From Fervidicoccaceae archaeon (GTDB lineage Archaea; Thermoproteota; Thermoprotei_A; Sulfolobales; Fervidicoccaceae): a stretch of DNA of 64,000 nucleotides. The position numbers and the translations under genes are program-made. The stretch covers positions 186,001 to 250,000 of the forward strand of contig JAVZVD010000001.1 in NCBI GenBank assembly GCA_038878695.1, read 5' to 3'. This document shows positions 2,459-41,782 of this stretch, one piece after another (the first letter of the stretch is position 1; every line of letters starts with the position of its first letter). The notes beneath the pieces are model-generated. The model was not told the origin of the DNA and searched no databases. It saw only the letters and a list, made by a program, of their open reading frames with translations.

Positions 2459-2533
2459 GGCGCTCAATGATGATAGACCCGAGACTCCGAGGTCAGCCGG
2501 CCTCTGACGATCCGTGTGAGGGCTGAGAGCGCC
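2459..2533 (+). ncRNA. Box C/D sRNA candidate (2'-O-methylation guide)
   Basis: All elements of an archaeal C/D sRNA are in order: 5' terminal stem GGCGCTC (2459-2465), C box ATGATGA (2467-2473), a 13-nt guide (2474-2486), D'-like CCGA (2487-2490), C'-like TGACGA (2505-2510), a 12-nt guide (2511-2522), D box CTGA (2523-2526) and 3' stem GAGCGCC (2527-2533). The terminal stems are perfectly complementary over 7 bp. The D' box is imperfect and the D'-C' spacer (14 nt) is long, so the second guide is less certain. It starts 4 nt after the upstream gene's stop and may be processed from that mRNA. Targets were not assigned. Confidence 0.75.
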
Positions 2534-2564: not shown

Positions 2565-3245
2565 TTAGACCATGAAGTACTGTTCTCGGAGCCTCACCCG
2601 GTCCCCCTCGATCTTAAAGACGTTTCGCCTAGCGCCCTCCCTGACCGGTTCTTCTATTCCGAGCGGGGGCGCTATGCCGTAGTCCTCCTCGAATCTCCTC
2701 GAGAGCTCCTCAAGCGTTAGGGCTCTCATCGGATTTTCTTGGAGTATCTTCTTGATCAGATTTATCGAGTCCTCCATGTAGTTCCACGGATACATGTACC
2801 AGACCCACTCCTCGACCAAGTCAACGTAGAAGTCCGGCTCTATTTGCGCTACTGGTTTGATGTACTGCATAGTTGCAACTTTGAGTTCCTTGGGTCTGCA
2901 GCTCTGAATTAGGTAGCTTCTGCTCACTACGATGCTTCTCCCCGTATCACAAATGTCATCGACGAGGAGCACGCTTTTCCCGGAGAAGTCGACGGATAGG
3001 GGATACTTTACGACGGCGTCCTCGTGGATCCTACCGGCCGTTTCCACCCAGTGTTCGACTTTCAAAGCGAGGAGATCTAGCACTCCGAGGTAGTCGCAGA
3101 GCAATCGGGCGGGCGCCACGCCTCCTCTCGCTATCGCCACTATGACGTCTGGCTGGAAGCCGGTGGCGACGATCCTGCGCGCGAGCTCTCTGGACCAATC
3201 GACCACGTCCTTCCACTCAACCACCTTGACCGGGATCTTGGGCAA
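2565..3245 (-). CDS. Purine-type phosphoribosyltransferase
   Basis: Type I phosphoribosyltransferase: the PRPP loop VLLVDDICDTGRS (residues 92-104) is intact, and the N-terminal half has the IVAIARGGVAPARLL strand-loop. Family members transfer phosphoribose from PRPP to hypoxanthine, guanine or xanthine. At 226 aa it is longer than the minimal domain; the extra C-terminal 70 residues (ALTLEELSRRFEEDYG onwards) look like a small winged helix or lid. TTG start at 3245. The base used cannot be decided from sequence. Confidence 0.85.
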   Translation of the reverse strand: MPKIPVKVVEWKDVVDWSRELARRIVATGFQPDVIVAIARGGVAPARLLCDYLGVLDLLALKVEHWVETAGRIHEDAVVKYPLSVDFSGKSVLLVDDICDTGRSIVVSRSYLIQSCRPKELKVATMQYIKPVAQIEPDFYVDLVEEWVWYMYPWNYMEDSINLIKKILQENPMRALTLEELSRRFEEDYGIAPPLGIEEPVREGARRNVFKIEGDRVRLREQYFMV

Positions 3246-32132: not shown

Positions 32133-32232
32133 GGGCCCGTAGCTCAGCCTGGCAGAGCGCCCGGCTCATAGGGCCTTCACCTCTTCGCTTTGAGAGACCG
32201 GGCGGTCCGGGGTTCGAATCCCCGCGGGCCCA
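32133..32232 (+). tRNA. Elongator tRNA-Met (anticodon CAU) with 26-nt intron
   Basis: Acceptor GGGCCCG/CGGGCCC, D arm GCTC/GAGC, anticodon stem CCCGG/CCGGG, T arm CGGGG-TTCGAAT-CCCCG, discriminator A. The anticodon loop CTCATA is interrupted after position 37 by an intron 32171-32196. A bulge-helix-bulge fits: helix CTCA (32165-32168) with TGAG (32191-32194), bulges TAG and AGA. It lacks the three G-C pairs of initiators in the anticodon stem. Confidence 0.93.
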
Positions 32233-41708: not shown

Positions 41709-41782
41709 GGGCCCGTAGTCTAGCTGGTCAGGACGCCGCCCTCACGCGGCGGAGGTCCGGGGTTCGAATCCCCGCGGGCCCA
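41709..41782 (+). tRNA. tRNA-Val (anticodon CAC)
   Basis: Acceptor GGGCCCG/CGGGCCC, anticodon arm CCGCC-CTCACGC-GGCGG, T arm CGGGG-TTCGAAT-CCCCG, discriminator A. No intron, no encoded CCA. Its 3' half and downstream flank are identical to those of tRNA-Met. Confidence 0.95.

Follow-up and report, generated by a model that had tools for sequence, protein, structure and literature searches.

A box C/D sRNA of a Fervidicoccaceae archaeon predicted to guide 2'-O-methylation of the wobble C34 of tRNA-Val(CAC)

A box C/D sRNA gene behind an open reading frame

The window, that is, the whole 64-kb stretch of DNA analysed here, belongs to an archaeal genome of 1.11 Mb in 5 contigs, which was compared with relatives from an order of 11 families. 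Positions 2459-2533 of its forward strand hold a genuine archaeal box C/D sRNA, in which stem, C box, guide, D' box, spacer, C' box, guide, D box, and stem follow one another from 5' to 3'. The gene sits in a gap of 109 nt, with an open reading frame (ORF) ending at 2455 on one side and a converging phosphoribosyltransferase gene on the other, and 3 nt separate the ORF from the start of the sRNA stem. The features considered are the following:

1820-2455, + strand: upstream ORF of 211 aa with homologs in relatives, probable source of transcription for the sRNA
2459-2533, + strand: box C/D sRNA gene, whole, read from the letters and recovered by a relaxed Rfam match, model R1 and a descriptor scan
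2459-2465, + strand: 5' arm of the terminal stem, GGCGCTC, paired in the computed fold
2467-2473, + strand: C box ATGATGA, an exact match to RUGAUGA
2474-2486, + strand: D' guide TAGACCCGAGACT, 13 nt, with no convincing target in a comparison against shuffles, and unlike the D' guide of most relatives
2487-2490, + strand: D' box CCGA, with CCGA as the apparent D' box in relatives G012, G032, G049, and G056 too
2491-2502, + strand: possible hairpin GGTC-AGCC-GGCC inside the D'-C' spacer
2505-2510, + strand: C' box TGACGA, kept as TGANGA in relatives
2511-2522, + strand: D guide TCCGTGTGAGGG, 12 nt, with G2518 opposite C34 of tRNA-Val(CAC), based on target pairing, relatives, shuffles, and co-occurrence
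2523-2526, + strand: D box CTGA, (nearly) invariant across relatives
2527-2533, + strand: 3' arm of the terminal stem, GAGCGCC, as read directly and in the computed fold
2565-3245, - strand: converging phosphoribosyltransferase gene
41709-41782: tRNA-Val(CAC) gene, from tRNA gene scans
41739-41749, + strand: predicted target, the tRNA-Val(CAC) anticodon arm CCCTCACGCGG, in which C34 is base 41743

The end boxes C (RUGAUGA, 2467-2473) and D (CUGA, 2523-2526) agree with those of archaeal box C/D sRNAs, both internal boxes C' and D' are degenerate, as is usual, and the two arms of the terminal stem form 7 bp. The first-pass annotation had read this stem, the C and D boxes, the C'-like and D'-like boxes, and two guides of 12-13 nt, all of which lie in the letters where it had placed them, and its identification of a box C/D sRNA is borne out by the boxes, by the target of the D guide, and by conservation throughout the order. 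The D'-C' spacer of archaeal C/D sRNAs usually measures 3-5 nt, and the 14 nt found here are longer. In several G+C-rich members of the family, namely G012 (L308), G014 (L301), G016 (L300), and G032 (L302), the spacer has likewise grown into an inverted repeat at the matching place, whereas in other relatives it comprises only a few bases.

A chance resemblance within a 3' UTR, with no functional RNA, is hardly credible and already contradicted. It would agree with a folding energy that is not unusual against shuffles (z -1.3), although such RNAs are defined by boxes and not by long helices, and with the lack of any Rfam family at 2459-2533 at curated cut-offs. However, the locus is recovered by a model trained without it, and its guide is conserved in most relatives. 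Moreover, a descriptor modelled on the site itself (the C box and CTGA as D, with YYGA for D' and TGANGA for C') was scanned on both strands; this site is its only match in the window, and 60 windows of equal length simulated by a first-order Markov model contain none, in line with the earlier view that the order and spacing of the elements are hard to obtain by chance; since the descriptor was shaped on the site, conservation is the stronger evidence.

Homologs of the upstream ORF occur in 52 of the 59 relatives, and a Pfam scan assigned the ORF to no family. Its C-terminal end is backed by homologs from many relatives that align to residues 201-209 of 211, and the earlier placement of the sRNA directly behind a stop codon holds. 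It is common for archaeal C/D sRNA genes to lie across or behind the 3' end of an ORF, and their maturation is governed by the boxes and not by the flanks (PMC7994747), which makes co-transcription with the upstream ORF the likely route; excision of the sRNA from the 3' UTR of the mRNA is plausible. The position behind this ORF is, nevertheless, incidental, since the homologous sRNAs of relatives sit at other genomic places and none was found behind 29 homologs of the ORF. The homolog in G023, for instance, lies at contig position 742888-742934 on the minus strand.

The D guide and the anticodon arm of tRNA-Val(CAC)

A duplex of 11 bp, with 10 Watson-Crick pairs and one G-U, joins the D guide UCCGUGUGAGGG to the anticodon arm of tRNA-Val(CAC) at 41739-41749 and places C34 exactly at the fifth nucleotide from box D. 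When the D guide is compared with the 16S and 23S rRNAs and 41 tRNA genes of its own genome, this tRNA ranks first together with tRNA-Ala(CGC), which also forms 11 pairs with one G-U and C34 at position 5; the score (10.3) and the energy (-21.4 kcal/mol) are the same for both. A Thr(CGU)-like pre-tRNA, also with C34 at position 5, is third among the tRNAs. When the D guide was shuffled, 14 of 20,000 sequences matched a tRNA this well with nucleotide 34 at position 5, and 2 of 20,000 did so for two tRNAs. The U residues of the guide that face positions 35 and 37 accept A or G, so that one guide fits the anticodon loops of both Val(CAC) and Ala(CGC). The first-pass annotation had left the guide targets unassigned and had named, among the signs against its reading, the lack of an rRNA or tRNA match of at least 9 bp that sets its target 5 nt away from D or D'; tRNA-Val(CAC) supplies such a match.

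In this genome, the duplex consists of 7 Watson-Crick pairs, one G-U, and 3 further Watson-Crick pairs. Owing to this G-U, the locus misses the strict rule of nine consecutive pairs (PMC4644070), which was applied to rRNA and which the relatives satisfy. The sRNA is predicted, with a probability of about 0.88, to direct 2'-O-methylation of the wobble C34 of tRNA-Val(CAC) through its D guide.

The D' guide has no comparable pairing in the nucleotide-5 register. Its best match scores 8.5, which 44 of 300 shuffles equal, and no target beyond chance was found for it among the 16S, the 23S, and the 41 tRNAs of its own genome. According to a review, sRNAs that target tRNAs usually carry one guide lacking a target (PMC7994747). 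This best match (10 of 11 pairs) falls within an intron, that of the Thr(CGU)-like pre-tRNA (L033, G000:C2:53063-53169), the anticodon loop of which is the third-best tRNA match of the D guide. Targeting of this intron was set aside as probably due to chance.

The sRNA could also act mainly on an rRNA site, with the tRNA match as a by-product, which seems very improbable. If its reading is extended through the C' box, the D guide fits the 16S rRNA (model-match position 882) with a score of 9.8, but this match has two mismatches and stays below both tRNA matches. Similarly, the D' guide common to most relatives, GCGAYYYCGG, fits the 23S rRNA near position 670 with G-U pairs, whereas the sRNA of the window differs in sequence there.

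In the favoured explanation, the sRNA would be processed from a longer RNA that probably starts with the upstream ORF, and L7Ae would bind at the C/D and C'/D' motifs, to be joined by Nop5 and fibrillarin. Once the D guide had annealed to the tRNA-Val(CAC) anticodon arm, fibrillarin would 2'-O-methylate C34, the fifth nucleotide from box D; judged by pairing, C34 of tRNA-Ala(CGC) is a second substrate of equal quality in this genome. The methylated C34 may in turn affect decoding, as Cm34 is held to tighten the C34-G3 pairing (PMC7668247).

A conserved guide found together with its predicted target

A DNA search recovered the block of C' box, guide, and D box (sRNA nucleotides 47-68) from about 20 relatives belonging to other families, at 91-95% identity. 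Model R1, a sequence-only model built from 14 of these relatives with the source genome left out, finds the locus of the window as its best match in that genome (23.2 bits, E 5.3e-5, model positions 15-57 of 57), and the guide core CCGUGUGAG of the family stands there before the D box. At E <= 0.01, R1 matches 148 of the 229 genomes of the class; these include members of almost every family in the order, along with two genomes from outside it. As judged by these sequence matches, the sRNA family is widespread in its order. Its guide core CCGUGUGAG is nearly invariant among relatives, and the core CCGTGTGAG lies inside an sRNA in 46 of 59 genomes. An exact pattern for guide and D box was also searched across the whole genome collection; the matches listed are mostly bacterial chance matches, together with scattered archaea of the Sulfolobales and Desulfurococcales.

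Guide and target go together. The tRNA-Val(CAC) arm CCCTCACACGG of most relatives is a perfect Watson-Crick partner, over 10-11 bp, of the guide CCGUGUGAGGG, and Sulfolobaceae members, with the guide CCGUGUGAGAA, keep only 9 pairs. The isoacceptor tRNA-Val(GAC) has a mismatch with the guide exactly at nucleotide 34. Among 50 relatives with a scored tRNA-Val(CAC) target arm, the sRNA guide core is present in 42 of the 43 genomes whose arm has the matching C38, the lone one without it being 87% complete (G030), and in none of the 7 whose arm has A38 (CCCTCACAAGG), six of them from genus g7 and one from family f7. A guide compensated for A38 (CCTTGTGAGG) was not found in these 7 genomes. The Fisher value for this co-occurrence (8e-8) is uncorrected for kinship and overstates the association, since only about two independent lineages are involved.

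A different sRNA occurs in five of the six g7 genomes; its guide CCUUGUAAGG, placed ahead of D', can pair with tRNA-Val(UAC) so that U34 comes to lie at position 5 (L368, L369, L370, L371, and L373 in G009, G029, G038, G054, and G047). Another such locus, L372, is found in G018, which thus carries both the Val(CAC) guide and the Val(UAC)-fitting sRNA.

These comparisons also bear on whether the main target could be tRNA-Ala(CGC), or a C34 set of Val-CAC, Ala-CGC, and Thr-CGU, instead of tRNA-Val(CAC) alone, a possibility that we consider rather unlikely yet worth keeping in view. The equal pairing of tRNA-Ala(CGC) in this genome and the third rank of the Thr(CGU)-like pre-tRNA speak for it, and so does the U that the guide keeps opposite position 37 even where tRNA-Val has G37, as would be expected if a substrate with A37 were also used. 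Nevertheless, the guide is perfectly matched to tRNA-Val(CAC) in most relatives, and loss of the sRNA tracks a change in that tRNA, both of which argue for tRNA-Val(CAC) as the main target. In a more far-reaching reading, also rather unlikely, one guide RNA may have been kept across the order to methylate C34 of both Val(CAC) and Ala(CGC), with U facing the differing purines at positions 35 and 37, and may have been lost when the tRNA-Val arm changed, with a separate and differently arranged sRNA serving U34 of tRNA-Val(UAC) in the lineage that lost it.

Relation to known guide RNAs and significance

Two Rfam families resemble the locus at relaxed thresholds. One of them, sR18 (RF01141, archaeal C/D box sRNA), aligns with it in one register over the C' box, D guide, and D box, but the locus reaches 19.9 bits, under the gathering cut-off of 45, and differs in its D' guide, its longer D'-C' spacer, and its 7-bp terminal stem. 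Two homologous loci of Sulfolobaceae that share the guide core (G036 and G045) score 58.4 bits, above that cut-off, and the family is thus partly catalogued. The other, sR-tMet (RF02163), matches the locus from end to end with 26.4 bits, under its gathering cut-off of 50, and its C'-guide-D half is in the same register. From its name, we take sR-tMet to be a guide for C34 of tRNA-Met; its guide CUAUGAG fits the CAU anticodon, whereas the guide GUGUGAG of the window locus fits Val(CAC) and Ala(CGC). A second sR-tMet-like match in the source genome (G000:C2:220627, 24.6 bits) lacks both a clean C box and a CUGA box and was dismissed as chance.

Two further observations were made in the Rfam scans. 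In the Sulfolobaceae genome G036, an HgcC-like stretch (L326, 186-332; 32.5 bits, cut-off 50) overlaps and follows the sR18-like sRNA, and its match is carried by the 3' half, which has a strong hairpin, CGCCC-TTTA-GGGCG. In the window, positions 32133-32232 hold an intron-bearing tRNA-Met-like gene, which is found by Rfam and by ARAGORN with introns and missed by plain ARAGORN.

The position-34 targets described for C/D sRNAs in Pyrococcus are tRNA-Leu(CAA), tRNA-Leu(UAA), and tRNA-Met, and a guide in a tRNA-Trp intron is also described (PMC7994747). The sRNA of the window resembles these guides in its presumed machinery, in the predicted wobble position, and in having one guide for a tRNA and the other without a target, but tRNA-Val is not among the examples named. 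Sac-sR10 of Sulfolobus acidocaldarius, an L7Ae-bound C/D sRNA (PMC5539422), likewise has proposed tRNA targets, tRNA-Gly(CCC) and tRNA-Pro, although its guide is unrelated to that of the window locus. The literature searched, to which the largest list (Pyrobaculum, Lui et al. 2018) does not belong, names no C/D sRNA for C34 of tRNA-Val. The locus is, therefore, a previously uncatalogued guide RNA of a known type, wobble guides for Leu, Met, and Trp tRNAs being known.

Rfam models of this kind of sRNA leave most members of the family undetected. The guides of most archaeal C/D sRNAs change fast (PMC7994747, PMC5539422); a guide that is nearly invariant over an order, and present or absent together with the tRNA that it is predicted to target, suggests that selection acts on a wobble modification. 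The sRNA thus yields a precise prediction for culturable relatives, in which Cm34 would be expected on tRNA-Val(CAC) and perhaps also on tRNA-Ala(CGC).
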